From contig JAETQO010000007.1 in NCBI GenBank assembly GCA_021770655.1, positions 1-64,000 of the forward strand: 64,000 nt of DNA, read 5' to 3'. Source of the stretch: Ruminococcus sp. Lineage in GTDB: Bacteria > Bacillota > Clostridia > Oscillospirales > Ruminococcaceae. Under the pieces are notes generated by a model that was given only the letters and a program-made list of their open reading frames with translations, searched no databases and had not been told where the DNA came from. Shown piece after piece: positions 9,727-57,560 of this stretch (the first letter of the stretch is position 1; each line of letters begins with the position of its first letter). Both the position numbers and the translations under genes were made by a program.

Positions 9727-11808
9727 TTATTCATTTGCCGAATTCTTTGCAATGACGTCTGCAACGAGGTTAGAGGGAAGCGGCTCATAGCGGGCTTTTT
9801 CAAAATCGAAAGAGCCTTGACCCTGGGTCATCTGTCTTAAAAGCAGGGTGAAATCTGCCATTTCCGCCATAGGCACTTCGGCGATTATTTCCGTCATGCC
9901 CTTTTTCTCGGCAGGGTTCATTCCAAGGACTCTGCCGCGGCGTTTGTTAAGCTCGCCCATCATATCTCCCGTATTGTCGTCGGGAACTAGGACGTTCAGC
10001 GAACCGATAGGTTCGAGCAGGATAGGCTCCGCCTGTCTCATACCCTCCTTATAGGCGATGGACGCGGCGGTCTTGAACGCCATTTCCGAGCTGTCTACAG
10101 GGTGATAAGAACCGTCTACCAGAATAGCTTTTAGTCCCACAACGGGAAAGCCTGCAAGCACGCCTTTTTTAACGCTCTCCTGAAGTCCCTTTTCGACTGC
10201 CGGGAAGAAATTCTTCGGAACGGCTCCGCCGAATACCTTTTCCTCAAAGACAAGGTCGTCGGAAATGCAAGGCTCAAACTCGATCCATACGTCGCCGTAC
10301 TGTCCGTGTCCGCCGGACTGTTTTTTATGCTTGCCCTGCACCTTGACTTTTTTGCGGATAGTTTCGCGGTAGGAAATTTTCGGTACGGAGGTTTCGACCT
10401 CAACTCCGAAAGTGCCTGCAAGCCTGCCCACAACGGAATCGCGGTGCAGTCCGCCGAGGGTGCTGAGTATCATCTCGTTTGTGGAGCTGTCCATTTCATA
10501 TCTTATAGTAAGGTCTTCTTCCATGAGCCTGTTCATTGAAGCGGATATCTTGCTTTCGTCGCCCTGTTTTTTAGCCTTGACAGCCATTTTATAACACGGC
10601 TTGGGGAACTTCATCGGCGCAAACTTTATAACTCTCGAGGAATCGCAGATAGTGTCGTTTGTGTTGACATTCATCTTCATAGCCACAACTATGTCGCCGC
10701 ATCCGGCCTCGGCAAGGTCTATCTGCTTTTTACCCTGAAGAGTAACAAGCTTTCCGACCTTTTCCGCCGTACCCGTGGTAGCGTTCACAACCTCTTTGTT
10801 TTGTGCCAGCTTGCCGGAGAATACCTTTATGTACGACATTTTTCCGACAAACGGGTCAGCAACTGTCTTGAATACAAATGCGCTGAGCGGATCGTTTTCG
10901 GAGCATACGACCTCGACAGCCTCGCCGTCGGCGGTCTCGCCTATCATAGCGTCCTTTTCGGACGGCGGCGGAAGCAGAAGGTCTATTTCTTTCAAAAGCA
11001 TATCCACGCCCGACATATCGGTGGAGGAAACGCAGGTAACAGGCGTAATAACACCGGAGTTCATACCTTTATGTATGCCGTCGATAATTTCTTTCTGAGT
11101 GAAAGCCTCGCCGGAGAAGAACTTTTCAAACAAAGCCTCATCGGTTTCCGCAACGGATTCGGAAACCGCCTCGATAAGTCCGTCGATACGGTACTCCATT
11201 TTCTCTGATACTTCGGCGGTTGGCATATCCGTTTCGACAGCCTTTCCGTCAACATACTTGTAAGCTTTCATTTCTATAAGATTAACGTATGACACGATCT
11301 TTCTGTCCGCAATAACAGGAACGACTACAGGGCAGACGGTAGGACCGAACTCTGCTTTTAACTGAGTAAGCACGTTGTTGAAGTTTGCGTTGTCGTCGTC
11401 AAGCTTTGTGACAACGAACATTGTCGGCTTGCCCATGCTTTTCGCCAGGTCGTAGGCTTTGTGCGTACCGACTCTTACTCCTGATTTACCCGACACGGTT
11501 ATCATTACACAGCCGCTGGCGCAAATGCCCTCAACGACCTCGCCCTCATAGTCGAAAAGACCCGGCGTGTCGAGAAGATTTACCTTATATTCTCCGGTTT
11601 CCAAAGAGGAGAGGGAGGTGTAAACGGAACATTTTCTTTTTATTTCCTCGGCGGTATAGTCGGAAACCGTATTGCCGTCGAGAACCTTTCCGAGTCTGTC
11701 TGTTGCTCCGCTCTTATATAGCAATGCCTCGGCAAGAGAGGTCTTTCCGGAACCTGCTTGACCGGCAATAGCAATGTTTTTGATTTTAGTACTGTCGTAT
11801 TTTTTCAA
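9727..11808 (-). CDS. EF-G-like translational GTPase (paralogue)
   Basis: Cytoplasmic GTPase of 693 residues with the EF-G domain order. The P-loop is GQAGSGKTS rather than the canonical AHIDAGKT found in the second EF-G at 33919. DTPG and TKLD motifs remain. The C-terminal half keeps EF-G domain III-V signatures such as KQSGGHGQYGDV and the [10 protein letters not shown] segment. Paralogues of this kind, including ribosome-protection proteins, bind ribosomes but do not replace EF-G; the exact job is unknown. Its own promoter and terminator flank it, so it is monocistronic. Confidence 0.9.
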   Translation of the reverse strand: MKKYDSTKIKNIAIAGQAGSGKTSLAEALLYKSGATDRLGKVLDGNTVSDYTAEEIKRKCSVYTSLSSLETGEYKVNLLDTPGLFDYEGEVVEGICASGCVMITVSGKSGVRVGTHKAYDLAKSMGKPTMFVVTKLDDDNANFNNVLTQLKAEFGPTVCPVVVPVIADRKIVSYVNLIEMKAYKYVDGKAVETDMPTAEVSEKMEYRIDGLIEAVSESVAETDEALFEKFFSGEAFTQKEIIDGIHKGMNSGVITPVTCVSSTDMSGVDMLLKEIDLLLPPPSEKDAMIGETADGEAVEVVCSENDPLSAFVFKTVADPFVGKMSYIKVFSGKLAQNKEVVNATTGTAEKVGKLVTLQGKKQIDLAEAGCGDIVVAMKMNVNTNDTICDSSRVIKFAPMKFPKPCYKMAVKAKKQGDESKISASMNRLMEEDLTIRYEMDSSTNEMILSTLGGLHRDSVVGRLAGTFGVEVETSVPKISYRETIRKKVKVQGKHKKQSGGHGQYGDVWIEFEPCISDDLVFEEKVFGGAVPKNFFPAVEKGLQESVKKGVLAGFPVVGLKAILVDGSYHPVDSSEMAFKTAASIAYKEGMRQAEPILLEPIGSLNVLVPDDNTGDMMGELNKRRGRVLGMNPAEKKGMTEIIAEVPMAEMADFTLLLRQMTQGQGSFDFEKARYEPLPSNLVADVIAKNSANE

Positions 11809-45429: not shown

Positions 45430-45882
45430 TTATTCTTCGATTTGTTTTCCGAGAAACATTGCCGCAGCTTTTGCAAGCATAGTCTGTTGCTCGGTACAGT
45501 GTTCGTCGTCCTTGTTTGCAATGAACGCCACAGCTCCGGTTATGTCGCCGTTGGAGATGATCGGCGACACTGCAAGAGCATGATTTGCCACGCCCTCAAC
45601 GGGGAAAAGGGTCGCTCTTTCGGAAGAATCGTACTCGTAATTTTTGCGGGATTCAAGCAGTTCCTCCAGAGCGGCGGAAAGTCTGCGCTGTGAGTATTCT
45701 TTTTTTGACACGCCTGAGACTGCCACAACGTGATCCTTGTCAAATACCACCGCCGGCGCTCCGCCAAGCTTTGAGATAACCTCCGCCGCCTGTACTGCGC
45801 CTTCGGACATTTCGTTTATCGCCGAGTATTTTTTGAAAATGACCTCGCCGTCAGGGTTGGTGTAGATTTCTAACGGGTCGCC
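45430..45882 (-). pseudogene. spoVT: spoVT, 3' part (GAF-like sensor domain), separated from its 5' part
   Basis: The last 146 codons of spoVT after Gly-Asp-Pro-Leu. The part begins EIYTNPDGEVIFKKYS, which completes an AbrB-type DNA-binding domain, and continues with the GAF-like domain of SpoVT (AVSGVSKKEY, then TGAVAFIANK) to the end QIEE. In the present arrangement it is the C-terminal extension of the recombinase reading frame. Joined at the 11-bp repeat to the 5' part at 57384-57560, it gives an in-frame protein of 180 residues; Bacillus SpoVT is of nearly equal length. SpoVT controls forespore gene expression and spore germination properties in Bacillus. All coding sequence looks intact. 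Confidence 0.9.
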
Positions 45883-47634
45883 GTTACAGATAACGTTGAC
45901 ACTAAGAACCTTGCCTTTGCTATTTTTTATAACATTGACAAGTTGTCCGGCTGACTTTTTGCTCTCAGTGCCTTTATTAAAATTTTCGGCAGCTTTTTCG
46001 CTGACATCTGCCATTGCTGATACGCTCTCAGGTTTGTCAAGTGTACCGTATGTTAGCAGGCAGTCAATGTCAGCTTTTAGTTGAATATCTATGTGACCTT
46101 CATAAACTGTTATTTTGTCGATTATCAGATTTATGTCATTTTTATCAAGGGTAGGCTTGTTTAAAATATTGTCGAAAATTTCAAATACGGTTTTTGCGGT
46201 TCGGTTTACTCTTACTATGGCATTATTTTTATCCACCGCCAGTTGCAACTGGTTTTTCAGTCCCTCTATTCGCAAGGTAAGCTCGTCGATCATTTCGGTG
46301 TAGGTTTCCTCAATGATCTCTGTACGCTCAGGGTGACGCATTACATCTCTTGTCTGCTGACGTGTGAGCATTTTCATTTCAGCTTTTGCGTCCTCGATCT
46401 GTCCTTTTATCAGCTCCACGACTGACTTGCTGTTTTTGCTTTCGTTCTGCTCCTTAGCAATGGAGTTTTGCAGACGTTCGATCATATCCTGCGAATTGTC
46501 ACGGACTTTTTGAATGTACTCTTTTAGCAGCTTATCAAGCATATCGACCCTTGTGTGATGTGATGTACAGCCTTTTGTTCCTCGTCTGTGATATGTTCCG
46601 CAGGTATAAGCGGCGGCAATATCGTTTCGGCTCATTGAGAACATTGGTGAGCCGCAGTCGCCGCAGTAGAGAAATCCGGAATAAGCATTTTCGTATTTTC
46701 TTACGCCACGATAATGAGATGTGGTACGTTTTTTGAGATTCTCTTGTGCTAATGCGAACACCTTATAGTCAACGATCGGCGTGTGGTTGTTTTCGAATAC
46801 AATGTGGTCAGTTTCGTGTTGCTTGACTTCATCACCGTTAATCCTTTTGCGGCGATATTTGCCTTGACGGAGCGTGCCAATATAGAAATCGTTTGACAAT
46901 ACTTCGCTGATAGTTACCAAACTCCAAGTTTGTTTTGCCTCACGCTTGCACTCTTCACCGTTCGCCTCTTTTCGCATCTTCTCACACATACGAGGGGTAG
47001 GGATATGTTTTTCAGTAAGGTAATTTGCAATTTTTTTATAGCCCCAGCCCTCATTGTACTTTTCAAAAATATCACGCACCACCTGTGCGGCAGGCTCGTC
47101 AACATCAAATTTCATTGTTTTGCTGTTGGTCATAACGTAACCATAAGGCACGGCACATATCCATTTGCCTTCTTCCTGACGGCGTTTTATTACTGACTTG
47201 ACTTTTTTTGAGGTGTCGGTAACGGGCATTTCGTTAATGAGAAATCTAAATTGGATAGCTGTCCAATCGTCATAGGTAGGATAATCAATGTTGTCACCTA
47301 TTGAGATGATCCTCATACCGGCGTCACGGAGATCTTCAAGCTCTACAAGACCTTTGCTGTTGCGGCGTGAAAATCTTGAGAAGTCTTTGACGATAAGGAT
47401 ATCATATTCCATTCGCAGCATTTTCTTTCGCAGTTCCTGATAGCCCTCACGTTGTTCAAAAGTATATCCCGAACGGTCACGATCTTCATAAAATTCGAGC
47501 GTACTGTCGGGAAATTTTCGCTTTACAAAGTCAGTTATGATAGCTTTTTGGTTCTCGATAGAGGTGTTGTCCCTGTCCATTTCCTCGTCAACAGAAATTC
47601 GGCAGTAGCCTGCTATGCTGTATTTTGTGCTCAT
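45430..47634 (-). CDS. Large serine recombinase, reading frame fused to spoVT 3' part
   Basis: Site-specific DNA recombinase. From the ATG at 47634 (AAAGGGTG upstream) the first 584 residues are element-encoded. They comprise a resolvase catalytic domain with YCRIS (nucleophile Ser14) and DFSRFSRRN, a recombinase domain, a zinc ribbon (FLYCGDCGSPM...CGTYHRRG...C) and a coiled coil (about residues 380-450). The frame then passes through the 11-bp attachment site as CNGDPL and continues for 146 codons of spoVT, so the integrated product is about 734 residues. In an excised circle the same frame would instead end with 24 residues starting QTTLKSELDYLL encoded at the right end. It should catalyse integration and excision of the element. 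Confidence 0.9.
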   Translation of the reverse strand: MSTKYSIAGYCRISVDEEMDRDNTSIENQKAIITDFVKRKFPDSTLEFYEDRDRSGYTFEQREGYQELRKKMLRMEYDILIVKDFSRFSRRNSKGLVELEDLRDAGMRIISIGDNIDYPTYDDWTAIQFRFLINEMPVTDTSKKVKSVIKRRQEEGKWICAVPYGYVMTNSKTMKFDVDEPAAQVVRDIFEKYNEGWGYKKIANYLTEKHIPTPRMCEKMRKEANGEECKREAKQTWSLVTISEVLSNDFYIGTLRQGKYRRKRINGDEVKQHETDHIVFENNHTPIVDYKVFALAQENLKKRTTSHYRGVRKYENAYSGFLYCGDCGSPMFSMSRNDIAAAYTCGTYHRRGTKGCTSHHTRVDMLDKLLKEYIQKVRDNSQDMIERLQNSIAKEQNESKNSKSVVELIKGQIEDAKAEMKMLTRQQTRDVMRHPERTEIIEETYTEMIDELTLRIEGLKNQLQLAVDKNNAIVRVNRTAKTVFEIFDNILNKPTLDKNDINLIIDKITVYEGHIDIQLKADIDCLLTYGTLDKPESVSAMADVSEKAAENFNKGTESKKSAGQLVNVIKNSKGKVLSVNVICNGDPLEIYTNPDGEVIFKKYSAINEMSEGAVQAAEVISKLGGAPAVVFDKDHVVAVSGVSKKEYSQRRLSAALEELLESRKNYEYDSSERATLFPVEGVANHALAVSPIISNGDITGAVAFIANKDDEHCTEQQTMLAKAAAMFLGKQIEE
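45872..45882. repeat. Left attachment core (direct repeat)
   Basis: AACGGGTCGCC on the plus strand, identical to 57460-57470. The flanks differ (TTCT before and GTTACAG after). On the minus strand it encodes Gly-Asp-Pro and the first two bases of Leu in the recombinase-spoVT frame. Confidence 0.88.
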
Positions 47635-47746
47635 AACTTTCACCCTTTCTTTGATATAGTGGTACAATGTTGTCACTTTTGATTATGGATCTTACCCTTG
47701 CGGATACATACAATGTTGTTAGTTTATATGTTTTATTACAAATAAT

Positions 47747-47775
47747 ATTGTATCACATCTTTGCCCAAAAGGCAA
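47747..47775 (-). promoter_or_regulatory. Promoter of the recombinase gene
   Basis: Minus-strand TTGCCT and TACAAT with 17-base spacing, about 110 bases before the start codon. Confidence 0.5.
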
Positions 47776-47838
47776 TAGGCAAAGGATATAAAAATAATGG
47801 TGGAGTGTATGTAAAGTGCACCATAGGTGCACTCGCTG

Positions 47839-48045
47839 TCAGAGAGTAATATTATGGTGGAGAAGATTTTCAGTACATTCGTACAGATCTTTAGAACCTG
47901 AGCGGAACACGGCAACTTTAAATTTTTCACCGCTAAGCTCCTTTATCTTGCACTCAACCAAGTTCATAACTCTCTCATTTTGTTGTTCTGCATTGCTCAG
48001 CCAGATCTGAGCGATGCCTGATTTTTCGTTCTTTATTATCTGCAA
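47839..48045 (-). CDS. Small recombinase-associated protein
   Basis: Protein of about 68 residues, LQIIKNEKSGIAQIW and onward, ending ENLLHHNITL. I recall similar small proteins near serine recombinases in Clostridial mobile elements, but no function is established to my knowledge. AAGGAG precedes a run of possible starts; the TTG at 48045 has the best spacing, the GTG at 48052-48054 touches the ribosome site. It lies about 200 bases upstream of the recombinase gene on the same strand. A role as recombination directionality factor is possible but unproven. Confidence 0.55.
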   Translation of the reverse strand: MQIIKNEKSGIAQIWLSNAEQQNERVMNLVECKIKELSGEKFKVAVFRSGSKDLYECTENLLHHNITL

Positions 48046-48054
48046 AAGCAACAC

Positions 48055-48669
48055 TCCTTATTACGATTTTTGCCTTTTTTGTATAGTGTTAATCAGTTTG
48101 CACATTTTGCTTTATCGCCTCGTTTCTATATGGTTTTATTGTCCGTGCTTTAAATTGACTGCCCTGTGACTCCTATTGCAAAGTTCGTATTTACGCCCCT
48201 TTGAGCGTGATTTCTGTAACTTGCGACCCCTAATTTTCTTTGAAAGCCGTATCTTGACCCCATAAAAAATATGCACAAAGACTTTTCTAAAAGTGCGTAT
48301 TTACGGCACTTTTGCGGCGAGCTTTGCTCGTCCGCTGTGAGTGTTTCGGGGGCTGCGACCCCGAAACTTTAACTTGCAATGAAATATTATGCGTTTCCTT
48401 ATCTCTTGTAAAAGTCATTTTTGCTCACCATAAGCTAAACTTTCTCATCTGTATTGTCACTGCTTTCAACGCATCGCCCACAGCGGCTCACAAATCGCTT
48501 GTGTGGGGTTTCCCTTTGGCTTTGCTAAACTTACCCGACTGAAAACTAAAGCCCACAGATCGCCACACGTTCGCTGATTTGGCGTTGACGGTAGCTTTGA
48601 AATGTTGACAGTAAAACTTGCTTTGATTTCTACCGGCACATCTTGTAAAGCAAGGTTTTGCAGGGCTTT
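48055..48669. other. Gene-poor stretch between the small protein and repA-like genes
   Basis: No convincing gene. Two CGTATTTACG motifs within similar contexts (AAGTTCGTATTTACGCCCC at 48181 and AAGTGCGTATTTACGGCAC at 48290) and related CTTGACCCC/CTTGCGACCCC words might be iteron-like sites or remnants of a lost gene. Confidence 0.35.
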
Positions 48670-49704
48670 TCATACTTTCAAGGTCAGTCTGTTGACAGTA
48701 ACTTCACTGGTGGATCTACTGTCACTGCTGTCACGCTCACGGTCGTAATGAAGAATTATCAGCCTGCAGTTGCGTGTCCGCTTGTACTGAAAATCAATGC
48801 CGTATTTTCTCAGCGTGTAACCGTTGCGAACCAGATCTCTTGTAACTCTATTCGGATAGAATGGTTCTTGCGTGACTTCTTTTAGTTCACTTACAAGTTC
48901 TGACGCCGTACCTGAAAAATCAATTCTCTTTTTGATGTAAACATACAATGCCGCAAGAAAAATGTTGTCCTTACTTTTTGGAGCGGACGGCTCATCGGTA
49001 ACGACCCACTTTTTCAAATCACTATTGAACTGCAAATTAATTTCTGCGTTTTCAATGTCACGACCGACACAGAATAGTTTAGCATTGCGACTGCCACGCT
49101 TGTTTTCAATAAGCACCAAACTTCCGTCAACACAGCCGCTGATTCCTGTACTTCCTGAGATCATATTGAACGGGTCGGTATCTTTGCATTTTCTAGTGTG
49201 ATGTACAACTATTATTGCGATTTCAAGCTTGTCCGCAAGTGTTTTCAGAACAGAGAGCTCTTTGTAATCTGAACCATAACTTGAATCAGTATCGCTGCGA
49301 ACCATTTGCAGAGTGTCAATAAACACGATCTTCAGATCGCAATGTTCGATTTTAAAACTTTCAATTTGCTCTTCAAGTCCGTTGCCGATAGATTCAGACA
49401 TAACAGAGAAGTACAAATTTTCAGTTGGCACATCAGTTATTTCATACAAGCGATTTTGAATACGAACGTAGCTATCTTCCAGACACAAATACAATGCTGT
49501 GCCTAGCAATGCTTTCTGCCCTAAAACATTTTCCCCTTTTGATATTGACAAGCACATATCAAGTGCCAGCCAAGACTTTCCGACCTTTGGTGCTCCTGCT
49601 AAGATATACAGACCTTGTGCGATCAAGTCGTCTATAACGAACTCTATTGGCTTGTACACCGTAGTCATTATTTCTTCGCAGGATCTAGTGATGAGTTTTT
49701 TCAC
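48670..49704 (-). CDS. RepA-like AAA ATPase (mobile-element helicase)
   Basis: ATPase of 344 residues of the RepA/AAA_25 type found in plasmids and integrative elements. Walker A GAPKVGKSWLALDM is at about residues 37-50, Walker B IVFIDTLQMV at about 125-134, and VVHHTRK follows. The C-terminal 100 residues may be a winged-helix DNA-binding part. The start is the GTG at 49704, with AGGAGGT 8 bases upstream. It probably unwinds DNA for element replication. A long leader with a strong hairpin precedes it. Confidence 0.88.
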   Translation of the reverse strand: MKKLITRSCEEIMTTVYKPIEFVIDDLIAQGLYILAGAPKVGKSWLALDMCLSISKGENVLGQKALLGTALYLCLEDSYVRIQNRLYEITDVPTENLYFSVMSESIGNGLEEQIESFKIEHCDLKIVFIDTLQMVRSDTDSSYGSDYKELSVLKTLADKLEIAIIVVHHTRKCKDTDPFNMISGSTGISGCVDGSLVLIENKRGSRNAKLFCVGRDIENAEINLQFNSDLKKWVVTDEPSAPKSKDNIFLAALYVYIKKRIDFSGTASELVSELKEVTQEPFYPNRVTRDLVRNGYTLRKYGIDFQYKRTRNCRLIILHYDRERDSSDSRSTSEVTVNRLTLKV

Positions 49705-49763
49705 GCTATCAGACCTCCTATTCTATTTTCAAGTTGCCGTTGTTATATATGTAATTTATACAA

Positions 49764-49858
49764 ACAAAAAAGCTCGCACATATTTCAGGCTCACGATTTG
49801 GCAACAGGATATAGTTATCCCATTGTTTTAAATCGTGCCTGATGATATGTACGAGCTT
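49764..49858 (-). promoter_or_regulatory. Attenuator-like hairpin in the repA-like leader
   Basis: Read on the minus strand, arms of about 29 bases (49830-49858 and 49770-49799) pair with few mismatches and are followed by CTTTTTTG, which is a terminator by form. The loop holds a nested hairpin (GGATA/TATCC). It lies between the promoter at 49934 and the start codon at 49704. A competing GAGCTATAAGCTC just upstream could form an alternative structure. Confidence 0.7.
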
Positions 49859-49933
49859 ATAGCTCTAAGTAGTTGATTATGTTTTTATGTATGTGGTAGG
49901 CAGATCGTTATATTTTAAAACTTTTCCTTGTGT

Positions 49934-49962
49934 ATTATAACATATAACGATGTGCTTGTCAA
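49934..49962 (-). promoter_or_regulatory. Consensus promoter of the repA-like gene
   Basis: Minus-strand TTGACA and TATAAT with a 17-base spacer, giving a leader of about 220 bases. Confidence 0.8.
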
Positions 49963-50177
49963 CAACTCGTACTTTTTTTATAATTGTTTTTAACTTACGC
50001 TGAAGTAGTGTGTAATAATTGGGTTTATTTACGTTGGGATTTACATACGCTGATGAAGGGTGATAAGGCGAGAAACGGTTATATAACATAAATTTAATAA
50101 TAAAAGTTGAGCAGATCTTTTCTTCGGACAAGGCGAACTAACGGCATAACCTCGAATATCCCGAATAAGTAAAACAA

Positions 50178-50219
50178 AAGCCCATAAAGGAAAACTCGCA
50201 CTTTCCTCTATGGACTTTG
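50178..50219 (-). terminator. Terminator downstream of the feoB fragment
   Basis: AAGTCCATAGAGGAAA pairs with TTTCCTTTATGGGCTT on the minus strand and is followed by TTGTTTTAC. Confidence 0.65.
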
Positions 50220-50262
50220 TTTTTTTAGTATAACGTAAACTGCAAACTCACGATCTCACAAT

Positions 50263-51305
50263 TCAAAAGATAACCACTCCGATATGATAAACAACACAAG
50301 CGATAAGTAATGCCGCAAGGGTGTAGAACACACCTATCTTGGCTGTCCATTTGGCGGAGTGCGTCTCTCTTGCAGTTGCTGCTAAGGCGCTGATACAAGG
50401 CATATTGAAACTTATTGCGAAGATGAATGCCAACCCCTCTGCTTTGGTAAAGTTGGCGGAGAGGATATCCGAGATACTTGCCGCAGCCGTTCCTGATACC
50501 TTTGCACCGAAAGTGGAGCTGACCAAACTTCCGCCAGCACCATAGAGGGTGTTGAGCACGCCAAGGAGAGATTCCTTTGAAATTGCCGAGGCGCAGAATG
50601 CAAGGAATGCCTGCCATTTCATTCCGACAAACTTTGTCACAGGCTCTATCAAAACGCCAAGCTTGTAAAGTATGCTGTTTTCTGCATTGCCGCCGAAACC
50701 GTAGGTCAGTACGAAGAATACGATAGATACCAGCGAGATTATCCTAAGCGCACGGAGAAAAATATCCAAAGTGCGTTGGAACGTCACATACAGCGTGTTT
50801 TTTATCGCAGGTTTATGATATGGCGGCAACTCCATTATTAGCCCAACTCGTTCCTCTTTTGGTGCAAGAGAATTGCCGAACACTTTGTAGACCACCCACA
50901 TCATCAGGAACATAAATAGGAAGATAGATACCATTACGAGAAATCCGCCTGTGCTGCCGAATAATGCAATGGCGATAGTTGGCACAACGGAAAGTGTCGC
51001 CGCACAAGGAACTGCCCAGCTCATAGCGATCGCAAGCACTCGCTGTCCCCAGTTATCAACAACACGAGTACCTGTAGTGCCTGCAATGGTACAGCCAAGA
51101 CCCATAAAAAATGGCATAATCGTTTTGCCCTGAAGTCCGACTTTGGACATTGTATGGTCGAACAGAAATGAGATACGGGCAAGGTAGCCGGTCTCCTCCA
51201 TAAGATTGAAACCTAGTGTAATACCCAGTACGAATGACGCCATCATTAGCGCAAAATACAGCACATTGATAAGCACGTCGCAGATGAGAGAAATCAGCAA
51301 TGGGT
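50263..51305 (-). pseudogene. feoB: Ferrous iron transporter FeoB, C-terminal membrane part only
   Basis: About 347 residues of the FeoB channel. LMEETGYLARISFLFD and KTIMPFFMGLGCTIAGTTGTR are the first Gate-type helices, and the sequence runs to the native C terminus. The N-terminal G domain (GxxxxGKS, NxxD) and the first helices are missing. The open frame continues to 51390 only because it reads the opposite strand of a GH5 remnant. Without the GTPase it is unlikely to transport iron. The break with GH5 sequence at about 51300-51315 is a rearrangement junction. Confidence 0.85.
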
Positions 51306-51460
51306 CTGCTGAAAATACGCTTAACTGGTATAAGGATATAAGCAGCGCCTTCGAGAAATGTTCTATTGGCAGAGCAGCTTGGTCATACAAGGGTGTTGAC
51401 TACGGCTTTGTTGACGGACATCTTGACAGCGTTCTCGATGAACTGGTAAAGTATCTTTGA
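51306..51460 (+). pseudogene. GH5 glycoside hydrolase, C-terminal remnant
   Basis: About 51 residues (NTLNWYKDISSAFEK, then AAWSYKGVDYGF) match the last part of the intact GH5 protein at 15082-16107, where STLSWYKDINAAFQK and SAWSYKEVDYGL are found. Everything upstream, including both catalytic glutamates, is gone. It abuts the truncated feoB head to head. A terminator hairpin follows, as for a normal gene end. Confidence 0.88.
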
Positions 51461-51493
51461 TAGATAATTTCTTCATATAACTCCATTTTTGGG

Positions 51494-51527
51494 CAAGCTC
51501 GGTCACGTTAGCCGAGCTTGTTTTTTT
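51494..51527 (+). terminator. Terminator of the GH5 remnant
   Basis: CAAGCTCGG...CCGAGCTTG followed by seven T. Confidence 0.88.
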
Positions 51528-51681
51528 GTACTAAGTTTCATAAATTGATATTTGCTCATAAAATTCTATTTACGATAATTATTTGATATAAATAATTGAA
51601 TATTGATATAATAGTTTTACAACAAAGTGTATAATATAAACCTAATCATTCATAGTCACTTTCTTATAATAACTTCCGAAT

Positions 51682-51717
51682 AAACAGACCTGCTTGAAGA
51701 TCAAGTGGGTCTGTTTT
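51682..51717 (+). terminator. Second terminator in the spacer
   Basis: AAACAGACC...GGTCTGTTTT with an inner CTTG/CAAG stem. It would end a short transcript from the TATAAT near 51630, so a small RNA or leader is possible. Confidence 0.6.
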
Positions 51718-51882
51718 CATATTTTTATACTATTTCATAAATTTGATATTAAACACTTTTATGATATTTATGTTACAAATTTGATATAAATAAAACGTTT
51801 ACACGGTTATAATGTATACAGAAACAACAAAATAAATTGCTTTAAGCAAAAATTTTTATTGAAAAAATCGGAGGAAAAAGTT

Positions 51883-52740
51883 ATGAATTTTAAGAAGTTA
51901 GCAGCAGGTCTTTCAGCAGCAGTTCTCGCAGCAACAATGATGTCAGTATCTGTTTCGGCAGCAAAGCTTGGCGACGTTGTTCACCCGTCAGAGGAGGACA
52001 CAAAAATGAATGACTCATATTATTCTATCGGAGCAATGGGTTTCTATATGGGTCAGGATTGGAACTGGAATCAAGGCGACTGGGTAGGCATTGATGATAC
52101 CGGTAAGATAGCTGTTGAATATAAGATAAGTGCAGTTATCGCCGACAAGTCAATGTCAGGCAAGGGAAATCTCGGAGATATGGGCGTTATGGTAGCTAAT
52201 CTGCCTGAGGGTATATATCCTTTGGATGTTAAGATATCTGATGCAAAGTTCGTTGCCGAGGACGGCACAACAACAGTTTTTGATTCTCTCAATTCTATTA
52301 CTTCAATGGACGAGGACTCAGAGGGTGGAATAAGAATACATATCAGACCGACTGATGAAGTCGATGAGGAAACAGGCGAAGTAACAAAGAAAGCTTGCCC
52401 TGAGGTCGCAGGCTGGGAGAAGGAAGGTGCTTTCAACGGCGGCACGCTTTCAATGACGCTTGATTTCGGTGTTGCAGCTGCCGAGGGCGGAGAGTCAAAA
52501 GCAGATACTTCAAAGGCAGAATCAAAGTCTGATACTTCAAGCTCAAAGACAGATACATCAAAGATAGATGCTTCTTCATCTAAGGCGGATACAAGTAAGG
52601 CTACTGTTACAGCGGCTGCATCTTCAAAATCTTCTGATGATACGTCTGAGGCAGCAGAAACAGGTGCAGCTGTTGGCGGAACACTTGCTGTTATCGCTCT
52701 TGCAGGTACAGCGGTGATCGTTACCAAGAGAAGAAAGTAA
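51883..52740 (+). CDS. Secreted, membrane-anchored surface protein of unknown function
   Basis: Protein of 285 residues. A signal peptide (MNFKKLAAGLSAAVLAATM, cleavage near SVSA-AKLGD) is followed by a globular domain of about 170 residues rich in Trp and Gly (GQDWNWNQGDWVG). A Ser/Lys/Asp linker follows (SKADTSKAESKSDTSSSK). The end is a hydrophobic helix with KRRK, like a wall-sorting signal, but with ETG instead of LPXTG. It is the first gene before a solute-binding lipoprotein (17 bases apart). A carbohydrate-binding role is plausible from context only. GGAGG lies 8 bases before the ATG. Confidence 0.75.
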   Translation: MNFKKLAAGLSAAVLAATMMSVSVSAAKLGDVVHPSEEDTKMNDSYYSIGAMGFYMGQDWNWNQGDWVGIDDTGKIAVEYKISAVIADKSMSGKGNLGDMGVMVANLPEGIYPLDVKISDAKFVAEDGTTTVFDSLNSITSMDEDSEGGIRIHIRPTDEVDEETGEVTKKACPEVAGWEKEGAFNGGTLSMTLDFGVAAAEGGESKADTSKAESKSDTSSSKTDTSKIDASSSKADTSKATVTAAASSKSSDDTSEAAETGAAVGGTLAVIALAGTAVIVTKRRK

Positions 52741-52757
52741 TATTCGGAGGTATGGCT

Positions 52758-54182
52758 ATGAATAATTCAAAAAGAGTTTTAACATTTGCTCTTGCAGTTT
52801 GCTCGCTTTCAGCATTTGCATCTTGCGGAAGTTCAAGTGATTCTTCAAGCAAGGTCGTTGACAAAAAGCTCAAGGAAGATCAGCAGCAGATAGTTCAAAG
52901 ACTTTCTGACGATATGACAGATGTAAGAGATCTAAAAAGCAACGAAATAAAATGGTTCTCACATTGGGATATCAACCCTACTGAGGCGGAGGACAAAGAG
53001 ATAGGTGCTGACCTTGCTTTGTTCAAGACAAAGTATAATGGTAAGATAAACTGGGTGCAGACCACTTGGGACACTAAGTTTGACGATCTTGCGGCACTTG
53101 TAATGTCAAATGATTCACCTGATTTCATTGGTGCTGATGATATGGACGTTTTCCCTAAGGGCGCTATAAAATCGATGATAGAACCTATCGATGATTATAT
53201 CGATCTTTCAAAGCCTCTTTGGACGGATATAAAGGGTGCGACAGATAAGTTTATGCTTGGTGACAAGCACTATGTGAGCGTTATCAGAACTGACCCAGCA
53301 TACGTTTTTGTATATAACAAGCGGACTATGGAAGATAACGCTTATGACGATCCTGCTGAGCTTTTTAAAGAGGGTAAGTGGAACTGGAATACTTTCACAG
53401 AAATGTGCCTTGATTTTACCGATTCTGAGAACGATAAATATGCACTTGACGGCTGGTATTATGAAAAGGCATTGCAACAGTCTTCCGGTGTGCCGCTCAT
53501 CGGTATCACAGACGGAAAGCTTGTAAATAATATTTCCGACCCAATGATAGCGAAGGCTCAGAATATGATGTATGAACTGCAAAAGAACAATGTTGTTTAT
53601 CCAAAGCACGAGAATAACTGGAAACTCAGAGGCGACGCTGAGGGCAGCGGAATGGCAACAGGTTTGACGCTTTTCTATCCTATCGGACTTTGGGCACTTG
53701 AGAATGCTCCGTCAACAACTGTGAACTACGGCGATGTATCAAAGGGAGAGGTAATGTTCGTTCCTGTTCCTTGCTCAGCTGATAGCGATAAACAGTATAT
53801 CCCTTCAAGAGTACACGGCTTTAGCATTGTAAGAAACGCTAAAAACCCGGAGGGCGTGGCGGCTTTCCTTGAATGCTGCCGTTATGCAGAACTAGATGAG
53901 GCCGCACATCAGATAACCCTTGATCAGTACAAGGACGATTATGGCTGGACTGATGAAATGCTGGAAATGAGAGAAACTATCTATGAACTGTCTGCACAGA
54001 ATCCTGTATTTGACTTTGAACAGGGCGTATCTGCCGATCTTAACTCTATCTGTGATACTGCAATAAGAGGAACAATGAATCCGCAGGAGTCAAAGAGCTG
54101 GTCACAGGTCGTTCAGGAAAATGAAAAGGCTATCGATTATATTATCGGCGAGGTTATGACTTCAATGAATGAGGCTAAGTAA
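52758..54182 (+). CDS. Extracellular solute-binding lipoprotein (ABC sugar type)
   Basis: Lipoprotein of 474 residues. The lipobox SAFASC puts the lipidated Cys at residue 23. The mature part resembles family 1 sugar-binding proteins (GKINWVQTTWDTKFDDLAALV, then FKEGKWNWNTFTEM). It would capture oligosaccharides outside the cell. No permease or ATPase gene is present in the element, so it must borrow a host transporter or act as a sensor. The ATG at 52758 fits the GGAGG site; one at 52752 is too close. A terminator follows. Confidence 0.88.
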   Translation: MNNSKRVLTFALAVCSLSAFASCGSSSDSSSKVVDKKLKEDQQQIVQRLSDDMTDVRDLKSNEIKWFSHWDINPTEAEDKEIGADLALFKTKYNGKINWVQTTWDTKFDDLAALVMSNDSPDFIGADDMDVFPKGAIKSMIEPIDDYIDLSKPLWTDIKGATDKFMLGDKHYVSVIRTDPAYVFVYNKRTMEDNAYDDPAELFKEGKWNWNTFTEMCLDFTDSENDKYALDGWYYEKALQQSSGVPLIGITDGKLVNNISDPMIAKAQNMMYELQKNNVVYPKHENNWKLRGDAEGSGMATGLTLFYPIGLWALENAPSTTVNYGDVSKGEVMFVPVPCSADSDKQYIPSRVHGFSIVRNAKNPEGVAAFLECCRYAELDEAAHQITLDQYKDDYGWTDEMLEMRETIYELSAQNPVFDFEQGVSADLNSICDTAIRGTMNPQESKSWSQVVQENEKAIDYIIGEVMTSMNEAK

Positions 54183-54201
54183 GATCTATTTATCAGAAAT
54201 T

Positions 54202-54231
54202 GGGCGGCAGGTCGATTTGCCGTCCTTTTTC
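54202..54231 (+). terminator. Terminator of the surface protein-binding protein operon
   Basis: GGGCGGCA...TGCCGTCC followed by TTTTT. Confidence 0.85.
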
Positions 54232-54300
54232 TATAAATAAGCGGCTTTACTTGTGTCTATAAATATGATATAATAAATTAAAAAGCAGGGGGTGAAAGCT

Positions 54301-55062
54301 ATGGAGATAAACAGGGAATTGTCTATGCGGCAGTTTATGCAAAAGGAAAATGACTATCATCATTCATCATATGAAACTGAACTGGAATTTTATTCTGCTG
54401 TGCGGGCAGGCGACCTTGAAACGGTCAAACGGCTGTATACGCCGCTGGATACAAACGGAAAGGGCAGGCTCAGCAAAGACGGTCTTAGGAATGTCAAGTA
54501 TCATCTTGTCATAACCATAGCAATGCTGTGCAGATTTTGCATCGAGGGTGGACTTGACCCGGAAACTGCATATACCATAAGCGATATATACATCAATAAA
54601 TGTGATGAGTGCCGCAATGAAGAAAGTGTTATGGCTGTGCACAAGGAAGTCATCGTTTATTATACCAAGCAAATGAAAAAGGCTGTGTCACAGAACGTTT
54701 ACTCAAAGCATATCCTTATGTGCTTTGACTGCATTTTCGATAATATTTACAAGGGCGTGACTGTGAATCAGATAGCAGATGAACTGAACATAACGCCGCA
54801 GTATCTTTCAAAGCTTTTCAGAGAGGAAGTTGGCGTAAAGATATCTGATTTTATTATGTCCAAAAGAATACAGGCGGCTGAAAATATGCTGAGATATTCT
54901 GAATATAGTCCGCTTGATATAGCCAACTATCTTGCTTTCAGCTCTCACAGCCATTTTATTGCCTGCTTTAAGAAACAGACGGGACTTACGCCGAAACAGT
55001 ATAGAGATCAGTTTTTCCGTGCAAACTGGAACAAGCATAGCACAAGCAAATCGAAAATATAA
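54301..55062 (+). CDS. AraC-family transcriptional regulator, element copy
   Basis: Regulator of 253 residues, similar along its whole length to the host protein at 16170: shared SYETELEFYSAV, KCDEC for KCDDC, ITPQYLSKLFREEVGV and LTPKQYRD. The C-terminal part holds the AraC double helix-turn-helix. GGGGGTG lies 7 bases before the ATG; a TATAAT at about 54270 is the likely -10. It probably controls the flanking glucan genes, and cross-regulation with the host paralogue is likely given near-identical recognition helices. Confidence 0.9.
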   Translation: MEINRELSMRQFMQKENDYHHSSYETELEFYSAVRAGDLETVKRLYTPLDTNGKGRLSKDGLRNVKYHLVITIAMLCRFCIEGGLDPETAYTISDIYINKCDECRNEESVMAVHKEVIVYYTKQMKKAVSQNVYSKHILMCFDCIFDNIYKGVTVNQIADELNITPQYLSKLFREEVGVKISDFIMSKRIQAAENMLRYSEYSPLDIANYLAFSSHSHFIACFKKQTGLTPKQYRDQFFRANWNKHSTSKSKI

Positions 55063-55175
55063 GTTGATATTAATATTCTGATATTTGCATTACTTTTCTG
55101 ATATAAATATCACATCTGTTGATTTATAATACTTATAGAAGATAAAATCCTGATGTTTATTCGGAGGTAATAAAA

Positions 55176-55943
55176 ATGAAAAAAGTTTTGGCTATGTCAC
55201 TTATTACAATGATAGTTATGTCTATGGGCAGCTGCGGTGTTTCATCTGACAGCAGTTCTTCGCAAGATGTCAGCAGCAATGCGGAAACGGAAAGCAATTC
55301 TCCATACACGGTTGAGGCAGATTTCGGCAAGGGTGCGTCAAGCGATTTTTCCATTTCAGCTGGCTGGTCAAATGGTGCTCCATTCAACTGTTCGTGGAGC
55401 GAGGATAACGTAACTTTCAATGATGGAAAAATGCAGCTTATCATTGACGGTATGGGCGATTCAGAGGTGTACAGAGGCGGCGAGTATCGTTCAAAGGAAA
55501 ACTATGGCTATGGACTTTATGAGGTATCGATGAAAGCCATAAAGAATGACGGCGTTGTATCATCATTCTTTACATACACAGGTCCGTCGGAAGATAATCC
55601 ATGGGACGAAATTGACGTTGAAGTCCTTGGCAAGGACACGACAAAGGTGCAGTTCAATTACTACACAAATGGCGTTGGCGGTCACGAATATATGTATGAT
55701 CTTGGTTTTGACGCTTCTGAGGATTTTCACACTTACGCATTTGAGTGGAAAGAGGACAGCATAACTTGGTATGTTGACGGAAAAGAGGCATACAAGGCTA
55801 CTGAAAATCTGCCAGTTACGCCCGGAAAAATAATGATGAATGCATGGAACGGAATTGGCGTTGACAGCTGGCTGAAAGCCTTTGACGGCACAGTTCCGCT
55901 TACAGCAGAATATGAGTGGGCAAGATTTACGGCAGCGGAGTAA
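55176..55943 (+). CDS. GH16 beta-glucanase lipoprotein (lichenase-like)
   Basis: Cell-surface endo-beta-glucanase of 255 residues. The lipobox MSMGSC puts the lipidated Cys at 20; a Ser/Asn-rich linker to about 43 precedes the GH16 domain. The catalytic signature WDEIDVEVLG gives nucleophile Glu145 and acid/base Glu149. The closest family members known to me are beta-1,3-1,4-glucanases (lichenases). It would cut mixed-linkage glucan outside the cell for uptake and further cleavage by an intracellular GH5. The spacer before it contains TTGATAT-type words. Confidence 0.92.
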   Translation: MKKVLAMSLITMIVMSMGSCGVSSDSSSSQDVSSNAETESNSPYTVEADFGKGASSDFSISAGWSNGAPFNCSWSEDNVTFNDGKMQLIIDGMGDSEVYRGGEYRSKENYGYGLYEVSMKAIKNDGVVSSFFTYTGPSEDNPWDEIDVEVLGKDTTKVQFNYYTNGVGGHEYMYDLGFDASEDFHTYAFEWKEDSITWYVDGKEAYKATENLPVTPGKIMMNAWNGIGVDSWLKAFDGTVPLTAEYEWARFTAAE

Positions 55944-55966
55944 AATTCATAAAAAGGGGAGTTCTT

Positions 55967-56716
55967 ATGGGCGTAGATATTCAAGAGAAAAGCTGCGTAT
56001 CAGAAGGCAAAAACATTTTCGGAAAACTGTTTATTCCAAATACTAAGGCAAAAACGTATCCTACCGTGATACTTAGTCACGGCTTTAACAGCATCGGTGA
56101 TGATATGGCGGATATTGCTTTGACTTTTGCGGGAAATGGATTTCTAGCATATACTTTTGATTACTGTGGTGGTTCGACACGATCGCATAGTGACGGAAAG
56201 ACCACGGAGATGAGTATTATCAGCGAACAGAATGACCTTAAAGCTGTTATAGATATGATGAGTGAACTTGATATATCAGACAGCGGACAGATATATCTTT
56301 ACGGCGAAAGTCAGGGGGGATTCGTTGCTGCACTTACAGCGGCAGAAATGCCTGAGCGTATTGCAGCGATGATACTGCTATATCCTGCATTCTGCATACC
56401 TGACCAATGGCTTTCAAAAGATCCTGAAAGTATGTCGAAACCCTTTGCCTTTATGGGAGATATGCTGCTTTCAAAGAAATTTTATGATGATGTTCCAAGA
56501 TATGATGTTTATGATAGAGTTAGTCGGTATAATAGTCCTGTGATGATATTCCATGGTGACAGTGATGAATTAGTTGCTTTATCATATTCCGAGCGATTGA
56601 AAACGACTTTTCCTAATGCAAAGCTGAAAGTTATAAAGGGTGCTGGTCACGGCTTTTATGGTGATGACAGGGAATATGTAAAGCGTGCGGCAGTTGATTT
56701 TTTTACAACGTTGTAA
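55967..56716 (+). CDS. Alpha/beta hydrolase, element copy
   Basis: Serine hydrolase of 249 residues and paralogue of the host protein at 14198. Ser115 is in GESQGG, Asp198 or Asp200 in HGDSDELVA, and His228 in GAGHGF. It keeps the host protein's central LLYPAFCIPD block. GGGGAG precedes the ATG at 55967. It lies 24 bases behind the GH16 gene and is probably co-transcribed. A long perfect terminator hairpin follows. Confidence 0.85.
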   Translation: MGVDIQEKSCVSEGKNIFGKLFIPNTKAKTYPTVILSHGFNSIGDDMADIALTFAGNGFLAYTFDYCGGSTRSHSDGKTTEMSIISEQNDLKAVIDMMSELDISDSGQIYLYGESQGGFVAALTAAEMPERIAAMILLYPAFCIPDQWLSKDPESMSKPFAFMGDMLLSKKFYDDVPRYDVYDRVSRYNSPVMIFHGDSDELVALSYSERLKTTFPNAKLKVIKGAGHGFYGDDREYVKRAAVDFFTTL

Positions 56717-56779
56717 AACGATTCACATATTACGCTTACTTTTATGTCTTGATTTTTTGCTTAATGATATTGATATTTG

Positions 56780-56828
56780 AACCGCCCCCATTAGCTAGAT
56801 CAAAAATTCCAGCTAATGGGGGCGGTTT
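56780..56828. terminator. Strong bidirectional terminator
   Basis: A perfect 17-base stem (AACCGCCCCCATTAGCT and its complement) with T-rich flanks on both sides. Its right arm touches the stop codon of the SEC-C remnant. Confidence 0.88.
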
Positions 56829-56910
56829 ATTTTCCACAGCATTTTTTATATTTCTTTCCGCTGCCGCAAGGACGGCAAATCATTTTTTGCTCTTGTCGGT
56901 GATGAACCAT
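56827..56910 (-). pseudogene. SEC-C zinc-binding motif remnant
   Basis: A 27-codon frame ending CRPCGSGKKYKKCCGK, the SEC-C motif that ends SecA and many other proteins. The preceding residues (MVHHRQEQKMI) show no domain. It is probably the tail of a lost gene, though a free-standing micro-protein cannot be excluded. Confidence 0.65.
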
Positions 56911-57039
56911 ATGCACATTGAATAGTTTTGCCCCAAACGGCAAAACTATTTAACATATGCCTTGATTTAAGTAACATTGTATGGTATAATATTAAAAGGT
57001 TGAGCCTGTATGGGCGGAAGTTTTTAATGAGGTGCTTGT

Positions 57040-57298
57040 ATGGAAATTAAACGTGATAAATATTTGCAGCAGCTGATCGATTTTATGTGGGACGGACAGG
57101 TAAAGGACTTACATTCAGTCCGCCTTTGCTTTGCCTGACGCCGAAAAAGAGATGCAGGAATTAAGACCTTTTTCTCTAACAGGTGATTCGTTTCCTAAAA
57201 TCATAGTTCGCAAAGATATAAGAAAACGCTGGTATGATGACAATGGTGTTCTGAATATTGGATTGATCGATTTTTTGTTGGACGATAGTGTAGTGTGA
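57040..57298 (+). pseudogene. AAA_14/DUF4143-type ATPase, internally deleted
   Basis: The first 24 codons (MEIKRDKYLQQLIDFMWDGQ) match the start of the common AAA_14-DUF4143 ATPases. From 57112 another frame resumes with the family's C terminus (QSAFALPDAEKEMQELRPF, then WYDDNGVLNIGLIDFLLD) and stops at 57298. The P-loop and over 300 residues between are deleted, with a frameshift at the junction near 57110. Confidence 0.75.
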
Positions 57299-57332
57299 GA
57301 TACTTCATAGAATTAGCCTGAAAATATTGACA

Positions 57333-57379
57333 GAAAAATCAGCCGCAAACCACGCACAAGTGTGGTCTGCGGCTGATTT
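57333..57379 (-). terminator. Terminator at the right end of the element
   Basis: AATCAGCCGCAAACCAC pairs with GTGGTCTGCGGCTGATT (one GT pair), followed on the minus strand by TTTTTC. In the integrated state it ends the short spoVT transcript; in an excised circle it would end the recombinase gene. Confidence 0.85.
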
Positions 57380-57383
57380 CGCA

Positions 57384-57560
57384 TTATTTTATGTACAGCC
57401 TATCCGCCAATCTGAGGAGCACAAGCAGGTAGTCAAGTTCGCTTTTCAACGTTGTCTGCAACGGGTCGCCCTCGCGAATCCTCATAGTTCTTCTGATCTC
57501 CTTAGGTATAACTACGCGCCCCAGATCGTCGATGCGGCGCACTATTCCTGTTGCTTTCAT
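57384..57560 (-). pseudogene. spoVT: spoVT, 5' part (AbrB DNA-binding domain), cut by the element
   Basis: From the ATG at 57560, with GGAGGT 7 bases upstream, the frame encodes the AbrB-like opening of SpoVT (KATGIVRRIDDLGRVVIPKE, then REGDPL). At codon 34 it enters the element and reads 24 foreign residues (QTTLKSELDYLL and onward) to a stop at 57384. The truncated product lacks part of the swapped-hairpin fold and the whole GAF-like domain, so it should be inactive. The missing 146 codons lie 11.6 kb away at 45430. Confidence 0.92.
57460..57470. repeat. Right attachment core (direct repeat)
   Basis: AACGGGTCGCC, identical to 45872-45882. On the minus strand it encodes Gly-Asp-Pro and the start of Leu in the same phase as the left copy, so recombination keeps the spoVT frame. 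Confidence 0.88.

Follow-up and report, generated by a model that had tools for sequence, protein, structure and literature searches.

This work concerns a 64,000-nucleotide stretch of a Ruminococcus sp. genome (assembly GCA_021770655.1, contig JAETQO010000007.1, positions 1 to 64,000; hereafter, the window), in which the sporulation gene spoVT is divided by an integrated element that encodes a large serine recombinase (LSR). Judging from the sequences, the element belongs to a family of LSR integrative mobile elements, nearly all examined copies of which are located at the GDP|L codons of spoVT. In the integrated state, the LSR is fused in frame to SpoVT residues 35–180, a feature that is absent from the preliminary description of this DNA. 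We interpret the locus as an LSR element at spoVT whose recombinase exchanges its C-terminus on integration, with a likely restoring excision and a possible switch of recombinase function, and estimate the probability of this interpretation at about 0.8.

The genome containing the window (G000, contig C84) has a length of 2.657 Mb and a listed completeness of 99.78%. A search with the TIGR02851 model found SpoVT positions 1–36 at 57557–57450 and positions 27–180 at 45891–45436, both on the minus strand. The 5′ part of the host gene (57462..57560, minus strand) contains codons 1–33 (MKATGIVRR...REGDP), and the 3′ part (45430..45870, minus strand) contains codons 35–180 with the stop codon and matches PF15714 with an E-value of 6.9e-32. 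The integrated element extends from core to core (45872..57470), with the 11-bp core AACGGGTCGCC at both ends. This core has just two sites in the window, 45872 and 57460, with a spacing of 11,588 bp, and its reverse complement is absent from the window. The core at the LSR/spoVT_C junction (45872..45882, minus strand) contains the presumed crossover dinucleotide, GA of a GAC codon, at 45878–45879; in the core at the spoVT-N/tail junction (57460..57470, minus strand), the GA is located at 57466–57467. Joining the flanks by a script resulted in a single 180-aa SpoVT frame without stops, divided by the element into 34 + 146 codons and 81.1% identical, with one gap, to the intact SpoVT of locus L028. 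Thus, precise excision of the element would restore the frame of spoVT. The preliminary description had claimed two parts of one gene that share the core and the codon phase and can be rejoined with continuous homology, and both the coordinates and the core search agree with it. A second complete spoVT, which that description had named as evidence to the contrary, was not found in the window genome assembly by TIGR02851, where the third match spans only positions 1–49; none of the other contrary findings named there was encountered in this genome.

A serine recombinase is indeed located at the boundary of the element, as previously described; however, its frame does not end there but continues through the core into spoVT as one open reading frame (ORF). 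This minus-strand ORF (45430..47634, likely ATG at 47634, stop at 45430) encodes about 734 aa and holds the Resolvase, Recombinase, Zn_ribbon_recom, and SpoVT_C domains of Pfam in a single frame, with a profile match at 45433–47634. The LSR families PF00239, PF07508, and PF13408 all score above the cut-off. Approximately residues 1–586 represent the recombinase and are followed by SpoVT residues 34/35–180. In a PDB sequence search, the best recombinase match of residues 6–420 was YokA of SPbeta, which we take to be SprA, and residues 581–733 matched SpoVT 2w1t.

The opposite end of the element carries the recombinase's own C-terminus. The tail LQTTLKSELDYLLVLLRLADRLYIK (57387..57461, minus strand; stop at 57384–57386) is fused to the N-terminal part of SpoVT as a 58-aa ORF. 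A similar arrangement can be noted in genome G438, where the tail SQTTWTRWEMFCYGMLDLAKRTGINGTS is likewise located on the SpoVT N part (…REGDP). When the circle junction of the window element is reconstructed, it stays in frame (…SVNVICNGDPLQTTLKSELDYLLVLLRLADRLYIK, followed by a stop), and the recombinase in the circle would have a length of about 612 aa and end in its own tail. Since the far end of the element carries this C-terminus and the circle junction is in frame, the phage-type attachment site (attP) can be placed with confidence inside the LSR reading frame, about 25 codons ahead of the natural stop. The left arm of attP (45883..45903, minus strand; LSR codons SVNVICN) is the inverted-repeat partner of the arm at 57444–57461, and 17 of 22 positions of the window arms pair around the GA centre. 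In all, attP was rebuilt in 24 of 35 genome pairs (the remaining 11 were missed by the parser), and all 24 have one and the same centre, GA of the GAC codon. Arm pairing averages 16.6/22 in the rebuilt attP (11 to 19) and 10.1/22 in the bacterial site (attB), with the best centre taken for each. This conforms to the pattern of LSR sites, in which the arms of attP are inverted about a central dinucleotide and attB is distinct from attP.

There are 40 distinct tails of 21–38 residues, that of the window among them; 36 have 24–28 residues. The codons VNVIS and [IT]TLT are explained by the attP DNA site covering them; the remainder of the tail lies outside the site. Beyond attP, the tails score 1.47 BLOSUM units per column in their own frame with no stops (34 of the 40 tails; six with indels were dropped), while in the remaining frames the scores are only -0.04 and -0.08, and 21 and 11 of the tails, respectively, contain stops. 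Column shuffles gave 0.77 (standard deviation 0.05) per column, a comparison in which relatedness is not controlled. The pairwise ratio of nonsynonymous to synonymous differences (pN/pS) of these short tails is high, about 0.78, with saturated pairs; the conclusion that the tail is conserved as a protein is therefore drawn from the frame comparison and not from this ratio. In the window, the stop codon of the tail is closely followed by a terminator-like hairpin (57333..57383, minus strand; -30.7 kcal/mol), located ahead of a T-run. By a crude rule, a terminator is present at this place in 20 of 48 cases, so no general claim on terminators is made.

Recombination at the core, with its centre at GA of the GAC codon, swaps two 3′ coding ends, and this exchange of C-terminal coding ends is evident from the reconstructed junctions. 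On integration, the LSR loses its own tail and gains SpoVT residues 35–180, and the N-terminal fifth of SpoVT gains the LSR tail. Because recombination occurs inside the LSR gene, an insertion that disrupts spoVT alters, at the same time, the recombinase that could repair the gene.

The element is not confined to the window. The TIGR02851 search covered 61 genomes, 29 of which belong to the genus of the window. Uninterrupted relatives, the comparison with which had been proposed earlier, are common in this genus: 19 of the 29 genomes have a full-length spoVT. In eight, the C part is located in a long or cut LSR frame, one genome has the N part only, and one was unmatched; G030 is one further carrier, outside the genus. 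A profile built from 15 fusions was run on 394 order genomes. In 30 of them, across 10 families, the LSR frame stays open through SpoVT_C to its end; these include G569, whose match begins at profile position 46, at a contig end. Further matches in the order are G651, with two TGA stops, and G670 and G416, cut by contig ends. Among 398 genomes from the phylum, the same fusion was found in three others (E<=1e-150), all of one genus of another family, and the order and phylum samples give 11 families altogether. Given the recurrence of the junction in the 30 order genomes and the common centre of all 24 rebuilt attP, the spoVT split is not a product of chance.

A GTDB scan with the LSR part alone revealed 398 related stretches, the best 80 of which were examined; the fused ORF is present in 69 of these 80. 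Elements at the same GDPL site, a search for which had also been proposed, were thus found both in the order genomes and in the GTDB stretches. The 11 unfused loci are diverse. In L091, the frame is open into SpoVT up to the contig end, and in L118, the contig ends before the core. The LSR reads into a tail in L094 and L125, the tail of the latter being only 12 residues long. In L085, L088, and L120, the frame is lost ahead of the junction and SpoVT_C lies in another frame, and in L084 and L064, the LSR runs to other sequence. L115 and L119 are inverted relative to spoVT and have an unrelated LSR C-terminus; here, the LSR end joins the reverse complement of the spoVT 5′ part (at about 11,740 and about 2,450, respectively), with the centre TC in one and GA in the other, representing inverted insertions or inversions.

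The N part was found in 33 of 46 genomes searched. Full-length spoVT is present in three of the 46 (G436, G460, and G496), in which the LSR is unfused, and in none of the other 43. G354, the fourth genome whose LSR is unfused, carries a split spoVT that has decayed. In G496, a related LSR (L193, contig C9, about 4,470–4,540) adjoins an opposite-strand ORF ending in ..SPSPLLITLTP at the same palindrome, while the genome has an intact spoVT; this is probably a secondary integration site. In G143:C12 (L190) and G378:C15 (L191), two spoVT N parts and one C part can be noted, as if elements were stacked or duplicated. In a phage collection, two unannotated faecal contigs were found, L229 with the fusion and L228 ending before the core.

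Comparison of the LSR and SpoVT_C phylogenies indicates that elements of this family pass horizontally from species to species and that their insertion is precise to the base, which the sequence comparisons below establish in our view. In quick trees with 96 shared rows, 44 LSR splits have a support of 95 or more, and 28 of these conflict with SpoVT splits that also reach 95; four splits are identical in the two trees. A SpoVT_C tree of 140 rows, which is based on a carrier-rich sample and has no shuffle control, requires at least 25 changes between the fused and intact states. Five close pairs were inspected base by base, and in four of them the identity breaks at the core, after GACCC. In L134/L135, 1193 of 1200 sampled sites are identical before the core and 381 of 450 after it; in L078/L082, the values are 1188/1200 and 368/450, and the pairs L078/L083 and L082/L083 are alike. 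The difference at synonymous sites between L134 and L135 is 0.01 in the LSR and 0.55 in SpoVT_C. The pair L209/L210 has no break at the core and looks co-inherited. The tree conflict and the near-identical LSRs attached to diverged SpoVT_C sequences imply that fusions are made anew by insertion. For this reason, and despite the open ORF in so many GTDB stretches and order genomes, we reject as very improbable the explanation that the fusion has been stably domesticated and serves a new function, for example, as a GAF-controlled DNA-binding regulator.

Regarding the fate of the broken gene, the reverse reaction probably restores spoVT in some cells or at some stages. This is likely since carriers keep sporulation markers and both spoVT parts are under purifying selection. 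Two markers, rather than a full sporulation set, were compared in 75 genomes: all 45 carriers and 29 of the 30 non-carriers have SpoIVA, and SASP was found in 40 carriers and 27 non-carriers. For SpoVT N codons 1–24, pN/pS is 0.036 in split genes (16 pairs) and 0.060 in intact ones (18 pairs). For SpoVT_C, it is 0.137 in 11 fused pairs with LSRs diverged in step and 0.114 in seven intact pairs; close pairs were used here because the ratio of nonsynonymous to synonymous substitution rates (dN/dS) over all pairs and at pS 0.05–0.5 is inflated by saturated distant pairs. Some contig ends lie near the core: among 33 GTDB loci with a contig end within 9.9 kb beyond the core, three end within 60 nt of it, where 0.4 are expected (P about 0.008 in a uniform model, with the 60-nt limit chosen after seeing the data). 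This may reflect more than one junction in the samples or a strain mixture.

The exchange of the C-terminus may, more tentatively, constitute a built-in switch of the recombinase. In the circle, the tailed form would act as the integrase; in the chromosome, the form fused to SpoVT_C would be inactive, excision-biased, or GAF-controlled; and the small protein encoded upstream of the LSR is perhaps a directionality factor. The idea that the exchange matters is supported by the conservation of the lost tail and by YokA being the best-matching solved LSR. Excision would return its own tail to the LSR and thereby regenerate the tailed enzyme for reintegration. A bolder version, which we consider rather unlikely, is that a conserved tail needed for integration is traded for the ligand-sensing GAF domain of the broken regulator, so that a host sporulation signal controls the enzyme. 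The chromosomal enzyme would then be off or turned to excision, and a single excision would mend both the regulator and the integrase. If true, this would be a genetic circuit carrying the element through the spore germ line.

Several observations weigh against the interpretation as a restorable, switching element. No circular or excised form was found in the genomes, viral contigs, or loci searched, although the attP patterns were insensitive. A consensus pattern for free attP gave no match in 394 genomes or in the viral contigs, and a looser pattern gave none in 229 loci; each recognizes only 2 of the 24 rebuilt sites, and both miss the window's own site, so hardly any weight can be given to these negatives. 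With two candidates scored per genome, none of the carriers showed another close copy of the LSR, and a plasmid search gave no match at E<=1e-60. Motifs for sigma-E, K, G, and F upstream of the LSR are not above chance. The small upstream protein was not detected at L090, L097, L111, L113, L124, L129, L137, and L144, where the LSR is close and fused and the available upstream sequence is ample. The purifying selection on the N part may date mostly from the time before the insertion. Decay can also be noted: besides the two TGA in its fusion, G651 has a stop at the start of the tail; in G354, the LSR, SpoVT_C, and SpoVT-N are located at C2:697996, 700769, and 938272, the last being about 240 kb away in the opposite orientation; and the frame is lost in the three GTDB loci mentioned above. 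Finally, attP overlaps the end of the LSR gene, and the fusion in frame could follow passively from this position.

Some arrangements related to free junctions should be mentioned. An improved attP pattern, recognizing 11 of the 24 rebuilt sites, gave a single match, in the viral contig L230; there is no LSR there, and this match was dismissed as chance. By translation, natural LSR-to-tail junctions were found only in L094 (partial, at a contig end) and L125 (short tail). L094 has a spoVT-N/tail junction at 1345 and an LSR running into a slightly different tail at 11,714–11,773, at the contig end, which is either a tandem of elements or a circle junction. In L125 (9965–15069), an LSR with a short tail-like end is located about 2.8 kb upstream of an intact spoVT.

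One alternative is programmed excision similar to that of skin and SPbeta, in which the recombinase is activated in sporulation and spoVT is rejoined in the cell needing it. The architecture, the exact restorability, the retained sporulation markers, and the conserved small protein beside most LSRs, a possible directionality factor, all agree with it. So do sigma-E-like motifs upstream of spoVT itself, found at 6 of the 48 split ends, where 1.4 would be expected by chance, and at 4 of the 35 intact genes, where 0.7 would be. If real, these motifs would place spoVT expression in the mother cell, and the gene may not depend on the forespore alone in these bacteria; sigma-G/F-like motifs were found at 4 of 48 split ends (1.3 expected) and at none of 35 intact genes (0.9 expected). 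For skin and SPbeta, excision takes place in the mother cell. The likeness to them, proposed in the preliminary description, holds for the architecture but perhaps not for inheritance, as the SpoVT of B. subtilis is reported to be a forespore protein whose expression depends on sigma-G (PMC5061766), and excision might therefore hit the surviving lineage. SpoVT is also described as required for completing sporulation in B. cereus (PMC5061766). The promoter regions of the LSRs do not favor this explanation either, and we consider its chances to be somewhat below even. If SpoVT acts in the forespore here as well, restoration would take place in the surviving lineage, the circle would have to persist and reintegrate, and the question arises of how the element is maintained.

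According to another explanation, attP overlaps the 3′ end of the LSR gene only for compactness, and neither the fusion nor the SpoVT-N-tail peptide has a function, both being by-products. Shared attachment sites fix the frame, so the fusion would be automatic once attP lies in the gene, and the inverted insertions L115 and L119 function as an example of an LSR with an unrelated C-terminus in place of SpoVT. In contrast, the tail beyond attP is conserved as a protein, which means that the recombinase loses a constrained segment on integration, and YokA, the best-matching solved LSR, has a reported C-terminal directionality element. A 2021 title by Abe reportedly calls the extreme C-terminus of the SPbeta LSR a component of a directionality toggle. 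Such passive overlap is a serious possibility, which we nevertheless do not favor.

A permanent knockout is less plausible. Here, the element would be an ordinary site-specific one, spoVT would serve as a tolerated safe harbor, and the gene would never be restored. The failure to see an excised form, albeit in insensitive scans, the decayed copies in G651 and G354, the ordinary promoter regions of the LSRs, and the report that B. subtilis still forms spores without SpoVT (PMC5061766) agree with this. However, carriers retain the sporulation markers, both spoVT halves are under purifying selection, and three contig ends lie close to the core, within a limit set afterwards. Moreover, a C. difficile spoVT mutant is reported to yield no heat-resistant spores (PMC3789822).

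The restorable element described here resembles skin (sigK), SPbeta (spsM), gin (gerE), yin (yabG), and vfbin, LSR elements that split a sporulation gene in frame with a short shared core; precise restorability and varied cargo are also common to them, and gin carries no phage genes. Unlike these elements, it interrupts spoVT, the gene of a regulator that acts in the forespore of B. subtilis; its attP is located within the LSR ORF, its LSR is fused to a host protein, and it was found in 11 families of the genomes sampled. In the SSV-type archaeal integrases, attP is also located inside the integrase gene; these belong to the tyrosine integrases, and their integration splits the integrase gene into two parts, whereas the LSR studied here remains one long open frame. 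As in the integration-dependent immunity described for mycobacteriophage BPs (PMC4557955), attP lies in a coding gene of the element, and integration alters the C-terminus and state of the product. In BPs, however, the repressor is shortened and loses an ssrA-like tag (PMC4557955), whereas here the altered gene is the LSR, which swaps its tail for 146 host residues; none of the 40 tails ends in AA. Engineered serine integrase fusions with a recombination directionality factor (RDF) are reported to shift the reaction toward attL x attR (PMC5737554), which indicates that a fused domain can change LSR direction; those fusions use the cognate RDF, and the spoVT element joins a host GAF domain through integration. 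A literature search gave no paper with both spoVT and "serine recombinase", and neither a spoVT element nor an LSR with attP in its own gene was among the matches listed. In the main text of a large LSR survey (PMC10083194), "sporulation" occurs once, in a reference, and AbrB is absent. We found no described LSR precedent for the exchange of the recombinase C-terminus for a host domain.

With this element, spoVT becomes one of the few sporulation genes known to be interrupted by recombinase elements, and it is a recurrent target across the order and beyond. It is a regulator needed for heat-resistant spores in C. difficile, as reported (PMC3789822), and the element family occurs in gut and rumen bacteria, so the finding bears on the control of sporulation and transmission in gut commensals. 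An LSR whose C-terminus is exchanged at each integration is also a natural test of how this region sets reaction direction, and the control of LSR direction is an open question useful for genome engineering.

The small protein upstream of the LSR (47839..48054, minus strand) has 71 aa and is, by its position only, a candidate RDF or regulator. Its relatives were found upstream of 94 of 121 LSR ORFs having at least 600 nt of upstream sequence, a set in which some loci represent the same element counted twice. The 27 ORFs without it include 11 distant viral LSRs, eight with less than 1.1 kb of upstream sequence, and the eight close fused LSRs listed above. Pfam, NCBIfam, PHROG, and PADLOC gave no significant match for this protein, whose conserved pattern is ..IWLTNAEQ..KKYKVAVFRSG..DL..CTE.LL.HN.

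The cargo differs between the elements examined. A domain search of the window element revealed an AAA_25/DnaB-like ATPase of replication type (48670..49704, minus strand) and a carbohydrate cargo with beta-glucan genes (51859..56716, plus strand), composed of an NPXTG-type surface protein (weak match), a solute-binding protein, an AraC regulator, a GH16 beta-glucanase, and an alpha/beta hydrolase. A C-terminal FeoB fragment (Gate and FeoB_C; 50263–51390, minus strand), the GTPase part of which is unmatched, is also located inside the element. No relaxase was found by Pfam among nine window proteins searched, whereas the element of R. albus KH2T6 (L045) carries Relaxase and MobC genes. The Anaerotruncus massiliensis AT3 element (L050, 1519–9361) carries type I restriction-modification and GmrSD-type genes, and the R. 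bicirculans element (L034) carries PP2C and kinase genes.

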